Shown here: in pieces, positions 22,980 through 31,973 of the stretch
Layout of the letters: each line of letters starts with the position of its first letter
How positions within the stretch are numbered: position 1 is the stretch's first letter
Source of the DNA: Catellatospora methionotrophica
Lineage (GTDB): Bacteria; Actinomycetota; Actinomycetes; Mycobacteriales; Micromonosporaceae
Assembly: GCF_011297335.1 (NCBI RefSeq)
Contig: NZ_JAAOTJ010000001.1
Location: 434,001-498,000, forward strand
DNA length: 64,000 nt
Reading direction: 5' to 3'
Program-made: the position numbers and the translations under genes
The notes under the pieces: generated by a model
Told to the model about the DNA's origin: nothing
Databases searched by the model: none
What the model saw: only the letters and a program-made list of their open reading frames with translations

Positions 22980-25829
22980 TCATGCCTCGTCGAGCCGGGC
23001 CAGCCTGTCCCGCAGTTCGCCCGCGTCGGGGTGGCCCAGTTCGTCGAGCATCGCCAGGGACAGCTGCCAGGCGTCGGCGGCGGGCCTCCGGTCGCCTGCC
23101 GCGTGGTGGGTGTCGCCGAGATGGGTGAGGGTGATCGTCTCGTAGTAGGGGTCGGCGAGCTGGCGCAGCACCACCAGGGCCTCCTGGTAGTGGACTGTCG
23201 CCTGCCGGTGGTCGCCCCGGCCGTGGTGGGCGTAGCCGAGGCTGTCGAGCGCGTTGGCCAGGCCCTCCCGGTCGCCCAGCTCCCGGTGCACCTCGACCGC
23301 CTGCTCGCAGTACTTGACCGCGTCGCCGTGCTGGCCCAGCTGGGCGTGCAGCCATCCGACGCTGTTGAGGGCCTGTCCCCGGCCGATGTGGTGGCCTGCC
23401 GACTGGAACCGGTCCAGCGCGTGCCGCGCGTCGAGCAGCGCCGCGTGCCGGTCGCCCTGGCCCTCGTGGACCAGGCTCATCCGCAGGTTGGTGTATGCCT
23501 GACCGACGAGGTCGTCCAGCTCGCCGAAGGCACGGTCGGCGCGGCGCAGGTGGGCGTGCGCCTCGCCGTACCGCTTCAGCCGGTTGTAGGCCAGGCCAAG
23601 GCTGCCGTGCGCGTGTGCCTGCCCGGCCCGGTCGGCGCAGCGCTCGGCGGCGGCCAGGGCGGTGCGCCCGGTGGCGACCCAGTCGTGCCAGTGCCCGTAC
23701 CGGTCCAGGTAGGTGGACAGAGCGGAGGCCAGCTGCCAGGCGTACGTGGCGAGGTTCTCGTCGGCGGCCGTGTTCAGCGCGGTCAGCAGCACGGCGTGTT
23801 CCGACGTGAACCAGGCCGAGGCCTCGTTCACGTCGCCGAACCGCGTCACCGCCGCGCCGGGATCGGCGGGCGCCAGGTCCAGCCGGTAACGGTGCGGATA
23901 GATGCGCAGCGCCGCGGCGTAGGCGCTGTGCAGGTAGTGGGACAGGACACGGCGCAGTGCCGCACGCCGGTCCGGCTCGGTCTCGTTGAGCTGCGCGAGC
24001 TTCGCCGCGTATCCCCGCAGGAGGTCGTGCAGCGAGAACCGGCCGGGCAGGTGTTCGGTGATCAGATGTGCGCGTGCGAGTTCGGTCAGCAGCGGGCGTA
24101 CCGCATCCGCCGGAGCTCCGGCCAGACTGGCGGCCGCGCTCACGCCCGCGTCCGCGCCCGGGTGCAGCCCGAGCAGCCGGAACAGCCTCGCGGCCGAGGG
24201 CGTCAGCCGCCGGCACGACCACGAGAAGGCGGCCTGCACGTCGGTGGTGAAGTCGTCGGGGTCCTGCGGCCGCAGGCGTTCGCGGACCGCGGACAGCTCG
24301 GCGGACAGCGCCCTGAGCGGAAGAGCGGGATGGACGGCGGCACGCGCGGCGACCATCGCCAACGCGAGCGGCAGGCGCGCGCACCGGACCGCGATCTCGT
24401 CGGCGGCCTGGACGTCCGCGGCCACCCGCGCTCCGCCGAGCCGCCCGGCCAGCAGCTCGCGCGCCTCGACGCCGGACAGCACGCCGAGGGTCACCGGATG
24501 GGCGCCCTCCAGCGCGACCAGGCCGATCAGCTGATCACGGCTGGTGATCAGCACCATGCCGCCACGCCCGCCCGGCAGCAGCGGCCGGACCTGGTCGGCG
24601 TCGACCGCGTTGTCGAGCAGCACCAGGATCCGCCGGCCCGCGACCAGGCTTCGGTACAGGGCCGCCTGCGCGTCCAGACCGGCCGGCACCCGCTCCGGGG
24701 CGATGCCGAGCGCGTCGAGGAAGCCGCGTAACGCCTCCCCCGGCTCCACCGGCCGGGCCGCGGGGTGGAATCCGCGCAGGTTCACATACAGCTGACCGTC
24801 CGGGAACCTGGCCGCCGCCTGCTGGGCCCAGTGCACCGCGAGGGCGGTCTTGCCCACTCCCGCGGTGCCCATGAGGACGGCGACCACCGTCTCGGGGGGT
24901 GTCGCGGCGGCACCGTCGGCGAGGGCGTCGAGGTGTGCCAGTTGCGTGCCCCGCCCGGCGAAACCGCGGACGTCCAACGGCAGCTGGGCGGGCACCGGAA
25001 GGGCGGCCCGGACGGGCTGCGCGACCGCCTGACCTGCCACGGCCCGGTCGGGTTCCAGCGGCAGGTCGAGCGTGTGGTCGCCGAGCAGGATGCGCCGCTC
25101 CAGGACCTGCAGTTCACGGCCGACGTCGAGGCCGTACTCGTCGGACAGGGTGTGCCGGGCGTTGCGGTAGACGCCGAGCGCGTCGGTGACTCTTCCGCTG
25201 CGGTGCAGGGCGATCATCAGCTGGGCGACGAATCGCTGCCGGACGGGGTCGGCGGCCACCGCGTCCGTCAGCTCCGGCACGATCGCCGCGTGGTTGCCGC
25301 AGCCCAGTTCGGCGTCGAAGAGCTGCTCCAGCGCCCTGTCGCGCTGCTCGATGAGGTATGGGCGAGCGGCGGTGACGAACGTGGCCCGCACCCCGGCCAA
25401 GGGCAGCGTGCCTCGCCACAGCCCGAGCGCCGCGCGCAGCAGACCGACGGCGGCGGCGGGCGTACGCGCTTCACGGGCCTGGCCGACGAGCCGCGTGAAG
25501 GCTGCCAGGTCGAGCCTGCCGGCGGTGATGTGCAGCGCGTAGCCGGCAGCCTGACGGTCCACCGTGGCCAGCGGCCCGCTGCGGCCATGGAGGGCGGCTC
25601 GCAGCGCGGACACCATGTTCTGCACCTGGACGTTCGCGGTGCGCGGCGCGGCTCCGCCCCACATCGCCTCGATGATCTCGCCGGTCGCCACCACACGTCC
25701 GGCGCGCAGCATGAGGAAGGCGAGCAGGTCGAGTTGCTGGCGACGGGCGAACCGCAACGGCTCGCCGTCGACGACGACCTCCACCGGGCCGAGTAGGCGA
25801 AAGTCACCACCGTCGCTGTCTGCGATCAT
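22980..25829 (-). CDS. AfsR-type regulator: SARP/BTAD + STAND ATPase + TPR (copy 1)
   Basis: About 949 residues. The N-terminal winged helix begins FRLLGPVEVVVDG and continues through the MWGGAAPRT region. The BTAD helices (LWRGTLPLAG, EYGLDVGRELQVLE) extend to about 250. The NB-ARC/STAND ATPase (about 280-560) has Walker A GTAGVGKTALAVHW, Walker B-like RILVLLDNAVD and sensor LITSRDQL. A winged-helix relay and a series of TPR helices (about 690-940; AHAHGSLGLAYNRLKRYGEA is typical) complete the AfsR layout. Such proteins couple an unknown ligand to activation of secondary metabolism or secreted-protein genes. ATG 25829 gives the standard SARP start; GTG 25865 is possible. The M23-repeat gene follows 181 bases downstream and is a likely target. 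Confidence 0.87.
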   Translation of the reverse strand: MIADSDGGDFRLLGPVEVVVDGEPLRFARRQQLDLLAFLMLRAGRVVATGEIIEAMWGGAAPRTANVQVQNMVSALRAALHGRSGPLATVDRQAAGYALHITAGRLDLAAFTRLVGQAREARTPAAAVGLLRAALGLWRGTLPLAGVRATFVTAARPYLIEQRDRALEQLFDAELGCGNHAAIVPELTDAVAADPVRQRFVAQLMIALHRSGRVTDALGVYRNARHTLSDEYGLDVGRELQVLERRILLGDHTLDLPLEPDRAVAGQAVAQPVRAALPVPAQLPLDVRGFAGRGTQLAHLDALADGAAATPPETVVAVLMGTAGVGKTALAVHWAQQAAARFPDGQLYVNLRGFHPAARPVEPGEALRGFLDALGIAPERVPAGLDAQAALYRSLVAGRRILVLLDNAVDADQVRPLLPGGRGGMVLITSRDQLIGLVALEGAHPVTLGVLSGVEARELLAGRLGGARVAADVQAADEIAVRCARLPLALAMVAARAAVHPALPLRALSAELSAVRERLRPQDPDDFTTDVQAAFSWSCRRLTPSAARLFRLLGLHPGADAGVSAAASLAGAPADAVRPLLTELARAHLITEHLPGRFSLHDLLRGYAAKLAQLNETEPDRRAALRRVLSHYLHSAYAAALRIYPHRYRLDLAPADPGAAVTRFGDVNEASAWFTSEHAVLLTALNTAADENLATYAWQLASALSTYLDRYGHWHDWVATGRTALAAAERCADRAGQAHAHGSLGLAYNRLKRYGEAHAHLRRADRAFGELDDLVGQAYTNLRMSLVHEGQGDRHAALLDARHALDRFQSAGHHIGRGQALNSVGWLHAQLGQHGDAVKYCEQAVEVHRELGDREGLANALDSLGYAHHGRGDHRQATVHYQEALVVLRQLADPYYETITLTHLGDTHHAAGDRRPAADAWQLSLAMLDELGHPDAGELRDRLARLDEA

Positions 25830-25988
25830 CGGCGCGATCGTAGCCGGGCACGGTGAACTGTCCACAGTGCGCGGGTCTGCCCCCGCCCACGCAATGGGCC
25901 GGGTCGCGGCGGCGAGGTCGTGGGGCTACCCGTCGGCGCGGGTCCGGCCCGTCAGATCAGTGGCGCGGTGCGGGCTCCCGCCCTCGGC

Positions 25989-26402
25989 TCACGACGGCCT
26001 GGGGGCGCGCCGGTCCCTGCGCCGGGCCAGTTCCTCCTCGTCCACCAGGACGAGCATCGGCTGGTCCGGTGCGCACAGCATGGTGACGGTGAACCGCACC
26101 GGCGTGTCGTCGCGGTTGTTGCCGTCCTGGTAGTGGATGACGTCGCCGCCCGGTTCCCAGAACACCTCGCCCGCGCGTACGACGCGCTCGGGCTCGCCTT
26201 CCAGTTCGAACACCATCTCGCCTTCGAGCACGTAACCGAAGGCCGGGCCGGAGTGCCGGTGCGGCGGTGTTCCGGGGCTGCCGGGCGGGTATTCGACGAC
26301 GATGGTCATCGCGTGCGCGCCGGCCGGGATGAACGGTGGCACCACCTCCTGGAGCATGGTGAACGCCGTCGAGTTCAGCTCCTGCGGAACATTGTCTGCC
26401 AT
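25989..26402 (-). CDS. Cupin-domain protein
   Basis: 137 residues with a single cupin barrel. Motif 1 is PGTPPHRHSGPAFGYVLEGE, with two metal-binding histidines and the glutamate further on. Motif 2 is the WEPGGDVIHYQDGNN region, with its histidine. The start ATG has GGAGG six bases upstream. It is the last gene of a same-strand run (sigma factor, SDR, small acidic protein, heme peroxidase, cupin) and lies 62 bases after the peroxidase. A cupin beside a peroxidase could be a metal-dependent oxygenase or a sensor/binding protein for the same substrate. Only the fold is certain. Confidence 0.87.
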   Translation of the reverse strand: MADNVPQELNSTAFTMLQEVVPPFIPAGAHAMTIVVEYPPGSPGTPPHRHSGPAFGYVLEGEMVFELEGEPERVVRAGEVFWEPGGDVIHYQDGNNRDDTPVRFTVTMLCAPDQPMLVLVDEEELARRRDRRAPRPS

Positions 26403-26464
26403 GGGATGCCTCCGCATCGGATCGTGGTGGATCTCTGAAGCGCGCTCGCCCTGCCGGGACGCGG

Positions 26465-27919
26465 TCACGCCGTGGGGACGCCGTCGAAGCCGAGGGTGAG
26501 CAGGTCGGCCATGCCGAAGCTCGGCCCGGCCGCGGGCAGGTTCGGCTGCCAGTCCGGTTCCAGGCTCAGGTAGCTCACCGTGTCGGCACGCATCAGGCCG
26601 ATGAGGACCTCGGCGACGATACGGCCGCCGACCGGGCCGAGCCGGTCGCCGTCGCCACGGTGCTCGGCCTCCTTGAGGATGTAGAACCACAGCGGCGTGC
26701 CCTGCGGCCAGTCCTGCGCCAGTTCTCCGGCGCTCAGCGGCTCGGAACCGAGCAGCCGCGCGACCGCCTCGCCGCTGGGCAGGGCCGTGGTGTCGCCGCG
26801 CAGCAGGTCGCGGACGGCCAGCGAGCGGTACGCCTCGGTGTCGACCGCGCCGGTGACCTGCTCGGGCAGGCCGATGAGGCTGGCGGCCAGCCGCCCGTCG
26901 AGGCGTTTGGCCCGTTGCGCGGGCGGGTGGCCGGGCAGGTCGAAGACCTGTGCGAGGTCGAGGCGACGATCGGCGGCCACGGGGCCGAAACCGACCAGGT
27001 CCGGGAAGAGCGGCACCGTGGAGCCGCCGTCGGCGAGCTGGTAGGTGTGCCGGATCTGGCCGTGGCCGTAGCGGAAGGCGGCGTCGGCGAACTCCAGCGG
27101 GATGTACGCCTGTCCCGCCGGCGGCGCGAACCACCGGCCGCCCTCGGCGAGCACCTGTTCGACCAGCTCCGTCCCGACCAGGCGGGGCAGGAAGTCGTGC
27201 ACGACGATCCACTGGTAGTGCCAGGTGAGGGTGATGCGTGCCTTGTCGAAGATGTCGCGGTCGGGCACGCCCGCCTCGCGCAGCCGGTCGACGATGCGGT
27301 TGTGCGCGCGCAGCAGCGCGATGTGCAGGGTCAGCGCGAACAGGTGCGAGTCGTTGCGGGGGTCGCCGATCAGGGCGACCCCTTGGACGTTGCGCTGCAC
27401 GTCGCCGCCGTCCGGGCCGAGCAGGAACTTCGCCGGGTCGGCGATGTCGTACAGGTAGGGCGAGCCGATCGGGCCGTCGGAGTACAGCATCTCCAGGTTC
27501 AGTTTCGGGGCGCGGGCGTTGCGCAGCGCCTCCGGGTCGACGCCGCCCATGATCGGTGACCGGTCGGCGGTGATGTCATGGGCGATGAGCTGGCCGAAGA
27601 ACGGCCATCCGGCGGCCTCGGTGGCGTCGTCGCGGCTGGGGTCGAGGCTGTCCAGGGCCACGGCGGCGTCGCAGATCCCGCCGTCGACGCCCGCGCGCAT
27701 CAGCAGTTGCGGGTCGGTGCCGAGCGGGGCGAGGCCGGGGAACATGCGCCCGTAGCGGGCCGCCCCGGTGGGCCGGTCCACGGCGCGGGCGAGGCTGAGA
27801 CAGTGGTCGCGGGCGGCCACCCGGCTGCCGTGCGGGTGTGCTTGAGCGCTGCTCACCTGCCGAGCGTATGCCGATACGGGACACGCTCCGGGCAGGTTGG
27901 CCAGATGCCCGGCGGTCAT
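26465..27919 (-). CDS. Heme peroxidase of the animal-type (An_peroxidase) superfamily
   Basis: 484 residues. The distal heme segment is WPFFGQLIAHDITADRS, with the distal histidine following Q and the calcium-site aspartate. Downstream is DPRNDSHLFALTLHIALLRAHN, matching the conserved R-E/N-LHxLxxREHN stretch. The proximal histidine lies in AFRYGHGQIRHTY. This is the bacterial branch related to peroxidasin and linoleate diol synthase. No signal peptide is visible. The ATG at 27919 overlaps the stop of the preceding small acidic gene (ATGA), so the two are translationally coupled; a GTG at 27856 is a less likely start. Operon context with an SDR, a cupin and an ECF41 sigma factor suggests oxidation of a specific small molecule or peptide. 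Substrate unknown. Confidence 0.87.
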   Translation of the reverse strand: MTAGHLANLPGACPVSAYARQVSSAQAHPHGSRVAARDHCLSLARAVDRPTGAARYGRMFPGLAPLGTDPQLLMRAGVDGGICDAAVALDSLDPSRDDATEAAGWPFFGQLIAHDITADRSPIMGGVDPEALRNARAPKLNLEMLYSDGPIGSPYLYDIADPAKFLLGPDGGDVQRNVQGVALIGDPRNDSHLFALTLHIALLRAHNRIVDRLREAGVPDRDIFDKARITLTWHYQWIVVHDFLPRLVGTELVEQVLAEGGRWFAPPAGQAYIPLEFADAAFRYGHGQIRHTYQLADGGSTVPLFPDLVGFGPVAADRRLDLAQVFDLPGHPPAQRAKRLDGRLAASLIGLPEQVTGAVDTEAYRSLAVRDLLRGDTTALPSGEAVARLLGSEPLSAGELAQDWPQGTPLWFYILKEAEHRGDGDRLGPVGGRIVAEVLIGLMRADTVSYLSLEPDWQPNLPAAGPSFGMADLLTLGFDGVPTA

Positions 27920-28152
27920 GACCGCCCCCGTTCGCCCGGCCCGGCGTCGTCCTCGACGGCCTGCACCGCGCGGAGCAGGTTGCGCAGCCCGACCTCTTCG
28001 CTCTGGGCGTACGCCGGATCGATCATCCACTCGTCCATCGGTGTGGCGGCGGCCTCCTCTTCCGTCGGCGCGTTCTCGGCCATGGTCAGTTCGGCTTCGA
28101 CTTCGTTCTGCAGCTCGTGCAGGAACGTGCCGTCGCCGGTCGGGGTGTTCAT
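27916..28152 (-). CDS. Small acidic protein translationally coupled to the heme peroxidase
   Basis: 78 residues, strongly acidic (about 20 Asp/Glu), no cysteine, with two short helical stretches (FLHELQNEVEAELTMAE and VGLRNLLRAVQAVEDD) around a Met/Tyr/Trp-containing middle (PMDEWMIDPAYAQ). The ATG at 28152 has GGAGGAG three bases upstream. The TGA overlaps the peroxidase ATG, so fixed stoichiometry is likely. It does not match a family I know. Possible roles are a chaperone or accessory subunit of the peroxidase, or a peptide substrate whose Tyr/Trp/Met residues are oxidised. Both are inference. Confidence 0.78.
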   Translation of the reverse strand: MNTPTGDGTFLHELQNEVEAELTMAENAPTEEEAAATPMDEWMIDPAYAQSEEVGLRNLLRAVQAVEDDAGPGERGRS

Positions 28153-28201
28153 GTCTCCTCCATACTCGGGATGCCGGTGCTGAACCGGGCGCCCCGGGAT
28201 G

Positions 28202-28960
28202 TCACTTCGCGGGCGCGCCGGTCCGGCCCGGCCAGTCGCCGAAACGCGTCTCGCCCAGCAGTGCGCCGCCATCGGGCAGCAGGGTGCGCTCTTCCAGCAG
28301 GGCGCCGAAGTACGCGGCCTTCGGGTCGCTGACCACCTCGCGCGGATCGTCGCGCGCGGCCAGCGCCTCGCGGAAGAACTCGTCCATCCGGAACTGCTCG
28401 GGCCCGGCTATCTCGACGGTCCCGTGCAGCGGCGTGCCCACGGCCGTACGGCCGACGGCTTCGGCGACCTCGTCGCTGACCATGGGCTGGAACAGCACCG
28501 GCGCGAAGTGGACGGTGTCGCCGACGGTCGCCGCGTCGGACATGCTGCGGACGAACTCGAAGAACTGGGTCGCGTGCACGATCGAGTACGGGATCGCCGA
28601 GTCCTTGATCAGCTTTTCCTGGGCGCTCTTGGCACGGAAGTAGCCGCTGTCCTGCAGGCGTTCGGTGCCCACCACCGACAGCGCGACGTGATGCCCGACT
28701 CCGGCGGCCTCCTCGGCGGCGAGCAGGTTGCGGGTGGACGTCTTGAAGAAGTCCATGACCGCCGCGTCCTCGAAGGAGGGCGAGTTCGACACGTCGACCA
28801 CGACGCTCGCGCCTGCCAGCGCGTCGGCGACACCCTCACCGGTGAGGGTGTCGACGCCCGTGTTCGGTGACGCCGCCACCGCCTCGTGGCCGTGCTCGGT
28901 GAGCCCGGCGACGAGCTTCGACCCGATCAGGCCGGTTCCGCCGATCACCACGATCTTCAT
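28202..28960 (-). CDS. NmrA-like NAD(P)-binding protein (atypical SDR)
   Basis: 252 residues. The dinucleotide-binding motif is VVIGGTGLIGSKL at the N-terminus (GxxGxxG, residues 7-13). The later ALSVVGTERL and the YFRAKSAQEKLI stretch follow the atypical SDR pattern in which Y and K flank a short helix. NmrA-like proteins act as redox sensors or reductases. ECF41 sigma factors are characteristically linked to genes for carboxymuconolactone decarboxylases, oxidoreductases or epimerases; this protein fits the last class. AGGAGG lies six bases before the start, and an ECF41-like promoter is about 50-80 bases upstream. The small acidic gene follows after 49 bases. Confidence 0.87.
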   Translation of the reverse strand: MKIVVIGGTGLIGSKLVAGLTEHGHEAVAASPNTGVDTLTGEGVADALAGASVVVDVSNSPSFEDAAVMDFFKTSTRNLLAAEEAAGVGHHVALSVVGTERLQDSGYFRAKSAQEKLIKDSAIPYSIVHATQFFEFVRSMSDAATVGDTVHFAPVLFQPMVSDEVAEAVGRTAVGTPLHGTVEIAGPEQFRMDEFFREALAARDDPREVVSDPKAAYFGALLEERTLLPDGGALLGETRFGDWPGRTGAPAK

Positions 28961-29011
28961 GACAGACCTCCTGTCCCTGAGGGCGGCAGTCGCCGGCCCT
29001 CCATCAGCTAA

Positions 29012-29038
29012 GACCGGGCAGCCCCGCGACCTGTGACA
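29012..29038 (-). promoter_or_regulatory. Candidate ECF41-dependent promoter TGTCACA-N16-GGTC
   Basis: On the minus strand TGTCACA (29038-29032) is followed by 16 bases and GGTC (15 bases to CGGT), about 50 bases before the SDR start and just after the ECF41 gene. As I recall the published ECF41 consensus, it is TGTCACA with a spacer of about 16 and CGTC. The -35 matches fully and the -10 nearly so. Confidence 0.6.
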
Positions 29039-29068
29039 GCTCCGGCGCGGTCGGGCACGTGGCAGCCG

Positions 29069-29992
29069 TCACGCGGTGTCACCGGTCCCCATGCGAGGTG
29101 GGGCCGCCGCGGCGATACCGGCGAGCTTGGCGGGGTTCATCACCCACATGATCTGCTCGATGCCGTCGCCCGACGCGCTGATCGTGAACATCACGAACGC
29201 CGTGCCGTCGCGTGAGGCCAGCACCGACGCCCCGCCGTTCGCCTCGACCCAGCTGAATTCGGCGCCGGTCCAGTAGGTCGAGGCGAACGCCGCGATGAAT
29301 TTCGCCACGGTCGTCCGGCCCGCGACGGGGATCCGGGCTGCCCGCACCGCGCCGCCGCTGTCGGAGTAGCTGACCACGTCGGCCGCGAACAGCTCCTCCA
29401 GCCGGACCAGGTCGCCTTCGCGGGCGGCGGCCAGGAACGCGGTGAGCAGGCGGCGCTGCTCCGCCGGGCGTACGGCCTCGCGGCGCTGCTCGGCGACCCG
29501 TTTTCGGGCCCGGCTGACGAGCTGGCGGGCGTTGTCTTCGCTGGCCTGCACGATGTCCGCTATCTGCCCGTACGGGTAATGAAACGCCTCGCGCAGCACG
29601 TATGCCGCGCGTTCGGTCGGTGACAGCTTCTCCATCAGCACCAGGATCGCCATTTCGAGCGCCTCGCCCGTCTCCGCGCCCAGCGCCGGGTCTGCCGCGG
29701 TGTCGACGGGTTCGGGCAGCCACGGCCCGAGGTAGGTCTCGCGTCGCGAACGGGCCGAGCGCAGGTCGTTGATCGCCAACCGCGTCGTCGTCGTGGCCAG
29801 GAACGCCGCCGGATCCCGCACCGAGTCACGGTCGTAGGCCTGCCACCGCAGCCAGGCCTCCTGCACGATGTCCTCGGCCTCTGCCGCACTGCCGAGCATG
29901 CGGTAGGCGATCCCGAACAGGCGCGGTCGCAGGCTCGCGAACGTCTCCGCGGCCTCGTCCAGCGCAGCCGACGAATGTTCCGGAACCGGCAC
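29069..29992 (-). CDS. ECF41-family RNA polymerase sigma factor with SnoaL-like C-terminal domain
   Basis: 307 residues. Region 2 is LRPRLFGIAYRMLGSAAEAE and DIVQEAWLRW. Region 4 is KLSPTERAAYVLREAFHYPY, followed by QIADIVQASEDNARQLVSRA. The linker holds WLPEPVD, and the SnoaL-like C-terminal domain (about 190-290) has DSGGA in place of the DGGGK motif and NPAKL near the end; these mark ECF41. In this group the C-terminal extension, not an anti-sigma factor, controls activity. The gene heads a same-strand run with SDR, small acidic protein, peroxidase and cupin. Only about 60 bases separate its start from a truncated monooxygenase remnant, so its own promoter region may have been rearranged. 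Confidence 0.9.
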   Translation of the reverse strand: MPVPEHSSAALDEAAETFASLRPRLFGIAYRMLGSAAEAEDIVQEAWLRWQAYDRDSVRDPAAFLATTTTRLAINDLRSARSRRETYLGPWLPEPVDTAADPALGAETGEALEMAILVLMEKLSPTERAAYVLREAFHYPYGQIADIVQASEDNARQLVSRARKRVAEQRREAVRPAEQRRLLTAFLAAAREGDLVRLEELFAADVVSYSDSGGAVRAARIPVAGRTTVAKFIAAFASTYWTGAEFSWVEANGGASVLASRDGTAFVMFTISASGDGIEQIMWVMNPAKLAGIAAAAPPRMGTGDTA

Positions 29993-30050
29993 ATATCAAT
30001 GCTAGCGACAGATCAGGTGCCGCTCGCCCACACGGCCATATCACCACAAT

Positions 30051-31010
30051 GCGCTGGAGGAGCACGGCTGGGGCGGCGCGCTGATCGGGACCGGCTGGGG
30101 ACGGCCGGACACGTTCACCGTCGCCACCGCCCTGGCCACGCAGACCACGACGTTCCAGCCGCTCATCGCGGCCCGGCCCGGCTACTGGCGACCGGCCCAC
30201 TTCGCCTCCGCCGCCGCGACCCTGGACCACCTCACCGGCGGCCGGGTCCTGGTCAACGTCGTGTCCGGCAAGGACAACCTCGCCGCGTACGGCGACAGCG
30301 ACGGCGACCAGGCACAGCGCTACGACCGCACCCGGGAGTTCCTGCGCATCGTCCGCAGGCTGTGGACCGAGGAGAACGTGACCTACCGCGGCGAGCACTT
30401 CAGCGTCACCGACGCCACCGTGGTGCCCCGCACGGTCGTGCGCGGCGACCGCAGGCACCCCCGGCTCTACTTCGGCGGTGCGTCGGAGGCCGCCGAACAG
30501 GTCGCCGCCACCGACGCCGACGTCCAGCTCTTCTGGGGCGAACCGCTCGACGGGGTCCGGGAACGCATCGAGCGGCTACGGGCCCTGGAACGGAAGCTGG
30601 GACGCGAACACGCCCCGCTGGAGTTCGGGCTGCGCATCACCACCCTCGTCCGGGACACCACCGAGCAGGCCTGGGCCGACGCCGAAGCCAAGGTCGCGAA
30701 GATGGCCGACGGGCAGGACCCGGTCGCCCTCGACCCGCTCTGGCGGGCGGCCGTCGGCCAGCGGCGGCTGCTCGACCTGGCCGCCCGCGGCGACGTGCTG
30801 GACGACAACCTCTACACCGCCCCGGGCCGGTTCGGCGGCGGCGGAGCGGGCACCACCTGGCTGGTCGGCTCCGCCGCGGACGTCGCCGCCTCGCTGCGCC
30901 GATACCAGCAGCTCGGGGTCACCCACTTCGTCCTGTCCGACACCCCGTACCTGGCCGAGATCACCCGTCAGGGCGACCAACTGCTGCCGCTGCTGCGCGA
31001 CCCCTACTGA
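30051..31010 (+). pseudogene. 5'-truncated LLM-class flavin-dependent monooxygenase (SsuD-like)
   Basis: From 30051 the frame reads as an alkanesulfonate-monooxygenase-type protein: GALIGTGWGRPDTFTVATAL, then HLTGGRVLVNVVSGKDN, REFLRIVRRLWTEE, LYFGGASEAAEQVAA and FVLSDTPYLAEI, through a normal C-terminus. The first 40 or so residues, with the initial beta strand of the barrel, are missing. A TAG at 30003 blocks the frame upstream and no usable start codon lies between. Starting at the internal GTG 30261 would remove the first third of the barrel. I therefore call a relic, although an uncommon start cannot be excluded. It ends by overlapping the convergent tautomerase gene by 7 bases. Confidence 0.68.
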
Positions 31011-31507: not shown

Positions 31508-31861
31508 TCACGGGTTGAGTTCGGACTGCCAGTTCGCCGGGACCCGGCCGCGCGGCCCCGGCGTGGGCTGGTCGGCGGGGTGGTGGGTGGGGGCGGTGAG
31601 CTTCGGCCCGTTCATGAACGATTCGGTGCGGTAGTCCCAGAACCAGTCCTCGCCCGGCTCGAAACTGGAGATCACCGCGTGCCCGGACGATGCGGCGTGC
31701 TTGGTCGCGTGCTGGGCCGGGGAGTTGTCGCAGCATCCGATATGGCCGCAGGCGGTGCAGCGCCGCAGGTGCAGCCACCACCCGCTGGTCTGCTCGCACT
31801 CCACGCACCCGGTGCCGCTCGGCGGCACACTCGGGTCGATGACCGACTCGTCGTACTTCAT
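31508..31861 (-). CDS. UBP-type zinc finger protein
   Basis: 117 residues. The finger spans CVECEQTSGWWLHLRRC, CGHIGCCDNSPAQHATKHA and SGHAVISSFEPGEDW, which supplies the Cys and His ligands of a ZnF-UBP domain. In eukaryotes this domain binds ubiquitin C-termini. In actinobacteria it occurs as free-standing small proteins of unknown role. The C-terminus is a proline-rich tail. ATG at 31861 gives the natural N-terminus (MKYDESVID), with GGTAGG about ten bases upstream. Neighbouring genes show no clear link. Confidence 0.85.
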   Translation of the reverse strand: MKYDESVIDPSVPPSGTGCVECEQTSGWWLHLRRCTACGHIGCCDNSPAQHATKHAASSGHAVISSFEPGEDWFWDYRTESFMNGPKLTAPTHHPADQPTPGPRGRVPANWQSELNP

Positions 31862-31973
31862 GCGCTGACCTACCCCACACGGTGGCATGAGCGGCCGCCG
31901 CACCTCCAGGATGACAGGATCACCGGCCCGATGCAGGCGGAAGGCGCGCAGCCGGCCGGGGAGGGCGTCCGGT

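Follow-up and report, generated by a model that had tools for sequence, protein, structure and literature searches.

The closest described relatives of the locus analysed here are the ECF41 sigma factor systems of Bacillus licheniformis and Rhodobacter sphaeroides (PMC3426412). In the available text of that study, these systems have a sigma factor with a C-terminal extension, the target promoter consensus TGTCACA-n16-CGTC (Wecke et al.), an adjoining target gene of the oxidoreductase or epimerase type, and no anti-sigma gene; cupin genes are found in four contexts, one neighbouring gene or operon is concluded to be the target, and the word peroxidase does not appear in the main text as available. 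Two further sources give WLPEP in the linker and NPDKL in the distal region as ECF41 motifs (PMC7730460) and count SigJ of Mycobacterium tuberculosis as an ECF41 member (PMC8999054). The locus described here, a group of five genes headed by an ECF41 sigma factor gene (ecf41), lies in a 64,000-nucleotide stretch of Catellatospora methionotrophica, a member of the Micromonosporaceae (contig NZ_JAAOTJ010000001.1, positions 434,001 to 498,000; referred to below as the window). It shares the features of the B. licheniformis and R. sphaeroides systems, but, beyond what that text describes for them, its operon also encodes a heme peroxidase and a small module that is new, and elsewhere in the window genome another promoter of this type precedes abhydrolase and TMEM175 genes. 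Judging from sequence comparisons, we consider it somewhat probable, with appreciable room for doubt, that the locus is an operon targeted by an ECF41 one-component sigma factor and that the small protein is an accessory module of its redox enzymes.

All five genes are on the reverse strand. ecf41 (29069..29992) encodes a protein of 307 aa with a SnoaL-like C-terminal extension, and is followed by genes for a short-chain dehydrogenase/reductase (SDR)-like NAD(P)-binding protein (28202..28960; 252 aa; NAD_binding_10, PF13460, above cut-off), a small acidic helical-hairpin protein, here called the module (27916..28152; 78 aa), an animal-type heme peroxidase (26465..27919; An_peroxidase, PF03098, 68.5 bits; 484 aa if the ATG at 27919 is the start), and a single-domain cupin (25989..26402; 137 aa; Cupin_2, PF07883, 54.8 bits). 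The gaps between them are, in order, 108, 49, −4 and 62 bases. The original prediction had given the same single-strand arrangement, gaps and gene labels; the recomputed coordinates and gaps all agree with it, and NCBIfam or Pfam models match the ECF41, SDR, peroxidase and cupin proteins, with none matching the small open reading frame (ORF). Over residues 16-293, the sigma factor scored 344 bits against TIGR02957 (SigX4, NCBIfam; cut-off 323), and it reached 284 bits against the SigJ model NF007214 (cut-off 271), which places it in the same sigma group as M. tuberculosis SigJ; from the latter match we infer that TIGR02957 can stand in for ECF41. The extension is covered by both models, and PF12680 (SnoaL-like) matched it with an E value of 1.9e-4, below the Pfam cut-off. 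The linker motif WLPEP begins at residue 91, and NPAKL near the C-terminus, at residue 286, is one change from NPDKL. The gene neighbourhood of M. tuberculosis sigJ presumably differs from that of the window locus.

An ECF41-type promoter, TGTCACA-N16-GGTC followed by TTAGCTG (29012..29038, reverse strand), lies between ecf41 and the SDR gene and differs from the published TGTCACA-n16-CGTC (PMC3426412, as available) in the first base of the −10 element. The sequence TGTCACA-N16-(G/T)GTC-TTAGCT was present downstream of the ecf41 stop codon in all six Catellatospora loci that bear the gene. The extended pattern TGTCACA-N17-GTCNTNGCTG was found seven times in 11 Catellatospora genomes compared with no match in the reversed control; six matches were at the window locus and one preceded the abhydrolase and TMEM175 genes of the window's own genome. 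In that 8.4-Mb genome the core motif occurred 10 times, against twice in the reversed control: once each at the window locus and at abhydrolase-TMEM175, three times at two other sigma-factor loci (one an ECF41 paralog by sequence comparison, the other, as named by eye, a sigma factor gene divergent from a carboxymuconolactone-decarboxylase-like gene), and five times without such a neighbour. Because the hydrolase and TMEM175 families recur around the module in other genera, the genome-wide motif search independently retrieved members of the same gene set. In one Catellatospora genome (G003), the SDR gene has been lost except for some 22 codons at the 3' end, and it is the small gene that the ECF41-type promoter now precedes. 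Given the position of the promoter upstream of the SDR gene, the SDR, small, peroxidase and cupin genes are predicted to be ECF41 targets. The placing of ECF41 beside an oxidoreductase in the original prediction is also borne out, since the SDR gene adjoins ecf41 in a known ECF41 setting.

The distribution of these elements among Catellatospora genomes bears on the earlier proposal of a dedicated five-gene pathway. An ECF41 ortholog (78-82% identity) is present in 5 of the 10 other genomes besides the window genome, and the remaining five hold only paralogs of at most 48% identity. The six genomes with the ortholog are also the ones with the extended promoter and the small gene; the other five of the 11 lack all three. 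Peroxidase orthologs (82-89% identity) were detected in 9 of the 10 other genomes, including four of the five genomes that have no ECF41 ortholog, promoter or small gene, three of which also keep the cupin gene beside it. The SDR gene is at the locus in three of the six carriers of the ECF41 ortholog and missing from it in three, and all five genes are found together in only 3 of the 11 genomes. The five genes thus do not form a fixed unit, although their joint conservation had been set as a test of the dedicated pathway, and with the SDR gene missing in three carriers and the peroxidase present without ECF41 in four genomes, the pathway as proposed is not supported.

Retention of the peroxidase-cupin pair where the ECF41 ortholog, extended promoter and module are absent would suit a patchwork origin, in which peroxidase and cupin genes form an older pair, served by a separate promoter, beside an ordinary ECF41-SDR pair, and the small gene has no joint function. 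The presumed starts of transcription and translation also bear on this explanation. Leaderless genes and TANNNT elements have been discussed for actinobacteria. A TAGCAT element (29999..30004, reverse strand) stands six bases before the GTG start of ecf41 as a putative leaderless promoter, and this TAGCAT-N6-GTG arrangement is kept in all six Catellatospora copies. A similar putative element, TACGCT (27863..27868, reverse strand), forms TACGCT-N6-GTG with a GTG at 27856 inside the annotated peroxidase gene; the arrangement is invariant across the six Catellatospora copies with the small ORF and kept in relatives without it, TACGCT itself being retained in 10 of 11 aligned loci, those lacking the small ORF included, with N6 spacing in nine and N7 in G004. 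The 63 bases from ATG 27919 to GTG 27856 have a nonsynonymous to synonymous substitution ratio (dN/dS) of 1.43, compared with 0.18 for the peroxidase body and about 0.48 for the small gene over six Catellatospora copies, and their third codon position is the most conserved. As this stretch evolves like non-coding DNA and holds TACGCT-N6-GTG, the true start of the Catellatospora peroxidase is more likely GTG 27856 than ATG 27919, a result that also fits the patchwork explanation. Weighing against the corrected start, the ATGA overlap of the small ORF with the peroxidase gene is kept in 6/6 Catellatospora copies, and G134 and G136, which belong to a different genus, use such an overlap as the direct start of the peroxidase, at a residue that corresponds to the GTG; translational coupling from the small ORF to the peroxidase is therefore still plausible. 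The overlap noted in the original prediction is thus real and conserved, although the main peroxidase start in Catellatospora is probably not there, and a common transcript that begins with the sigma gene is unlikely because ecf41 appears to have a promoter of its own. It would seem that ecf41 and, in Catellatospora, the peroxidase gene are each provided with their own promoter.

The peroxidase loci of other genomes speak against the patchwork explanation. Forty of 45 family-level peroxidase places were examined (those of G130, G124, G125 and G096 and the second place of G062 were left out). The module was upstream of or fused to the peroxidase in 14 of these, and a degenerate relic of it was present in three, two detected by profile and the third (G285) by eye from its N-terminus. 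An exact ECF41 promoter lay upstream in 18 and an ECF41 gene in the surrounding stretch in 19. The promoter was found at 14 of the 17 peroxidase loci with a module or relic versus 4 of the 23 without the module; the other three of the 17 (G063, G064 and G065) have, by eye, CGTCACG-N16-TGTC, a form with two −35 mismatches and identical spacing. Around the 40 loci the core motif occurred 38 times, compared with once in the reversed control, in 659 kb. Moreover, several genera (g1, g4, g11, g13 and g18) have the module either as an in-frame fusion with the peroxidase or encoded immediately ahead of it. With these associations set against the separate retention of the peroxidase and cupin genes, we regard a patchwork without joint function as unlikely. 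In the class-level sample, 25 of 394 genomes matched the peroxidase profile and only the window's own genome exceeded 313 bits, so that close peroxidase orthologs were found only in Micromonosporaceae.

The small protein has an isoelectric point of 4.05, with 18 Asp and Glu residues compared with 4 Lys and Arg residues. Its dN/dS, together with matches in 27 of 354 Micromonosporaceae genomes, argues that the ORF is a real gene; third codon positions are the most variable over the six Catellatospora copies. Matches were also obtained in 15 of 394 class-level and 1 of 198 phylum-level genomes, the own genome being included each time, and a scan (A1) of genome contigs returned four loci, all Catellatospora. 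No relatives were found in Pfam, NCBIfam or PDB sequences, and the small protein is a member of an undescribed helical-hairpin family. An AlphaFold model built from five sequences has helices at residues 6-26 and 46-69 (mean predicted local distance difference test score, pLDDT, 79). A fold search with this model gave 83 matches at E values up to 10, none better than 1.9, and the best 50 of the 83 were mostly helical pairs and coiled coils. We considered the adaptor domain EAD2 (PF19956) and rejected it: only 2 of 25 members matched at all (best E value 0.0042), and among 10 singly scanned module proteins there was one match, of 22 residues and 14.8 bits against a cut-off of 23.8.

We examined 40 places where the module occurs, 26 of the 29 in Micromonosporaceae (weak hits in G177, G257 and G369 were left out) and 14 of the 17 class-level places outside the own genome (G761 and two of G640 were left out). 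A peroxidase gene follows within 110 bases on the same strand at 15 of the 40, and at five (G201, G241, G063, G064 and G065) module and peroxidase share one open frame, giving a fused protein of 565-568 aa with the module at the N-terminus; the tie between acidic protein and peroxidase drawn in the original prediction is therefore real. The module forms the C-terminal part of an SDR protein at four places, and at 13 a separate SDR gene on the same strand precedes it by no more than 300 bases. At five places a ferritin-like protein is encoded within 300 bases downstream; four of these match best a CDGSH-bearing form, and the one scanned has PF12902 and two CDGSH stretches. This neighbour resembles VioB-type ferritin-like enzymes and CDGSH proteins, but the scanned protein matches the VioB model weakly, and no such enzyme is seen in the window operon. 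At 27 of the 40 places, the 2.5 kb upstream of the module held a matching promoter on its strand, in three of them only at more than 2.3 kb, and around 39 module loci, a set that overlaps with the peroxidase loci, the core motif was found 54 times compared with twice in the reversed control in 637 kb. An ECF41 gene was in the stretch at 27 places, and separate inspection of L143 added one more. Nonomuraea gerenzanensis has the genes for SDR, module, ferritin-like/CDGSH protein and abhydrolase in this order, and an ECF41-like gene lies on the opposite strand; an exact ECF41 promoter was not found in that stretch.

Two apparent fusions on plasmids, drawn from the best 10 of 384 and the best 10 of 30 records, were discarded. 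The sole record with at least 80% coverage among the matches listed for the SDR-module fusion, a "plasmid I" record of 11.85 Mb, holds two adjacent genes, and in the sole such record among those listed for the module-peroxidase fusion the match starts behind the module. A TMEM175-type potassium-channel-like membrane protein (e.g., L083:5072-5686) is a recurrent neighbour of the module operon, often divergent from it, and has its own ECF41 promoter in L085, L087, L101 and L198.

The ATGA overlap of a small ORF with the gene of an oxidative enzyme could also mean that the acidic protein is a precursor peptide, modified by the peroxidase, of a ribosomally synthesized and post-translationally modified peptide (RiPP). 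A RiPP precursor is a leader-core peptide separate from its enzyme; the module is fused in frame to peroxidase or SDR at 9 of the 40 places, has a conserved body with a variable C-terminal tail and a predicted folded hairpin, and also occurs without a peroxidase. We have rejected this identity as very improbable. The wider proposal that the acidic protein is a substrate of the peroxidase is likewise weak, because the module is not specific to peroxidases, being also fused to SDR proteins or encoded beside the ferritin-like protein. Most likely, the small acidic protein would serve redox enzymes under ECF41 control as an accessory or docking module.

One could also envisage that the module is a signalling part, which binds ECF41 through the SnoaL-like extension or the core and feeds back the state of the attached enzyme. 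The ECF41 gene near 27 of the 40 module hits, and the joint presence or absence of module, ECF41 ortholog and promoter in Catellatospora, are consistent with such a role, but a plain regulon member would co-occur with its sigma factor in the same way, and 13 hits have no ECF41 gene nearby. Short ECF41-like sigma factors, apparently without the C-terminal extension, are encoded at three of the four loci where the module is fused to an SDR protein (209-215 aa in L140:5007-5651, L142:5847-6494 and L143:5343-5972); L141 encodes one of 214 aa. The one scanned, from L140, matches the ECF41-type model at positions 3-191 of 281; as it does not have most of the extension, another regulator may be needed there. 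Against this, the available text of the ECF41 study reports no signalling role for the neighbouring enzymes (PMC3426412), and we consider a signalling module quite unlikely.

Several results weigh against the view that the locus is an ECF41 target operon with an accessory module. The six Catellatospora carriers form one clade, so that the co-occurrence of ECF41 ortholog, promoter and small gene counts as one historical event rather than six; a tree-based comparison of module and promoter yielded one independent pair on starred branches, which is too few. Peroxidase is not tied to ECF41 in general, since an exact ECF41 promoter is missing upstream at 22 of the 40 peroxidase loci and an ECF41 gene is missing from the stretch at 21. 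Among the 40 module places, a matching promoter was not found in the 2.5 kb upstream at 13, an ECF41 gene was not found in the vicinity at 13, and the hits in G143 and G146 have none of the other families nearby. Finally, the window genome encodes at least three further ECF41 paralogs, one of which (46% identity) lies about 9 kb from the abhydrolase-TMEM175 promoter and may serve it; the pairing of sigma factors with promoters is thus provisional.

If the locus is an ECF41 target operon, as we think somewhat probable, ecf41 would be expressed at a basal level from its own promoter, and the SnoaL-like C-terminal domain, by analogy with published ECF41 work, would sense a small molecule. The sigma factor would then direct RNA polymerase to TGTCACA-N16-GGTC at 29038-29012, a site that is present in the DNA and whose use is predicted, and the SDR, small acidic protein, peroxidase and cupin genes would be transcribed together by reading through to the cupin gene; the peroxidase gene would have an additional constitutive promoter. 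The helical-hairpin module would bind the redox enzymes of the regulon and dock an enzyme to a common partner, for which SDR is the leading candidate, being by a small margin the family that most often adjoins the module or is fused to it (17 of 40 places, 13 upstream and 4 fused, compared with 15 for peroxidase). An SDR-module-oxidase assembly would be the most likely arrangement, and its output might be the cytosolic oxidative detoxification of an organic compound or a peroxide. The predicted ECF41 control and the tie of the acidic protein to the peroxidase are thus what remains of the original prediction, whereas a dedicated five-gene pathway is not supported and one transcript for all five genes is unlikely. 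A more far-reaching proposal, which we make tentatively and regard as rather doubtful, is that a transferable module marks the enzymes of ECF41 responses and, by fusion or translational coupling, joins a heme peroxidase or ferritin-like/CDGSH protein, iron enzymes of different chemistry, with a dehydrogenase-like protein in one complex, possibly together with the sigma factor; if so, one species could use a different enzyme from another with the same sensor, promoter and adaptor.

Among the open-access papers listed, ECF41 was not found together with CDGSH, animal heme peroxidase, Catellatospora, Micromonosporaceae, TMEM175 or DUF1211, and was found with SnoaL only, although neighbourhood tables in the ECF classification literature may already list these genes; the co-mention of ECF41 and peroxidase that we examined concerned antibody reagents (two mentions). 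A wider ECF41 regulon, and a module fused to two enzymes, would provide handles, through interaction partners, promoter reporters and enzyme activity, on what ECF41 senses and why, and an animal-type heme peroxidase, predicted to be without ester-linked heme, would be placed in a regulated bacterial response.

The peroxidase belongs with the peroxidase-cyclooxygenase superfamily, which in the available text of PMC4420034 includes lactoperoxidase, peroxinectin and short bacterial peroxicins; the likeness consists in the An_peroxidase domain, the distal Gln, His and Asp, the Arg and the proximal His. That text gives xGQxxDHDx and xRxxEx as superfamily signatures, the first not being valid for families 4 and 7, and the window protein reads GQLIAHD and DPRNDS at these sites. 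Q110 and H114, placed by the published signature, and R188 and H286, placed by alignment with 8s6c, are invariant in 16/16 homologs, as is the distal Asp. Unlike the ester-linked members, the window peroxidase has both heme-ester carboxylates replaced, by A113 (Ala in 15 and Gly in 1 of 16) and S191 (Ser in 10 and Val in 6 of 16; the Glu position was located through 8s6c), and by eye it has no signal peptide. Since both carboxylates are replaced, its heme is predicted to be non-covalent; this denies it membership of the ester-linked families alone, not of the superfamily. By sequence the enzyme could be a peroxidase or a dioxygenase. An AlphaFold model from five sequences had a mean pLDDT of 30. 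Another small protein is encoded directly before distant peroxidases, twice with a 4-base overlap (L214:7068-7388/7385-8767, L216:7106-7288/7285-8673 and L217:6873-7187), and resembles the product of ORF 31508-31903 of the window, which by eye is a zinc finger of the UBP type.

Variants of ECF41 itself were also observed. Stand-alone proteins resembling the C-terminal extension are encoded at L083:7157-7600, L085:11521-11964, L087:5727-6095, L088:7904-8278, L093:9470-9835 and L213:10249-10602, several of them immediately 3' of an ECF41 gene, and the L093 copy is behind an ECF41 promoter of its own; a Pfam scan of the one tested, from L083, assigned no family. At L139:8714-10420 a sigma domain and an alpha/beta-hydrolase share a single reading frame.

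Directly downstream of the cupin gene, the window encodes an AfsR-like regulator with BTAD, NB-ARC and TPR domains (22980-25865, reverse strand). Such a regulator is also found 3' of the cupin gene in G006 (84% identity), and the other Catellatospora loci compared gave partial weak matches or none. On the opposite side of the locus is a luciferase-like (LLM) gene (30261-31010, forward strand), which, read from its in-frame start, misses the opening third of its family profile, the match starting at profile position 114 of 314. By eye, family-like residues run on upstream toward the start of ecf41, and since they extend beyond the in-frame start, the LLM gene looks 5'-truncated beside the ECF41 locus.

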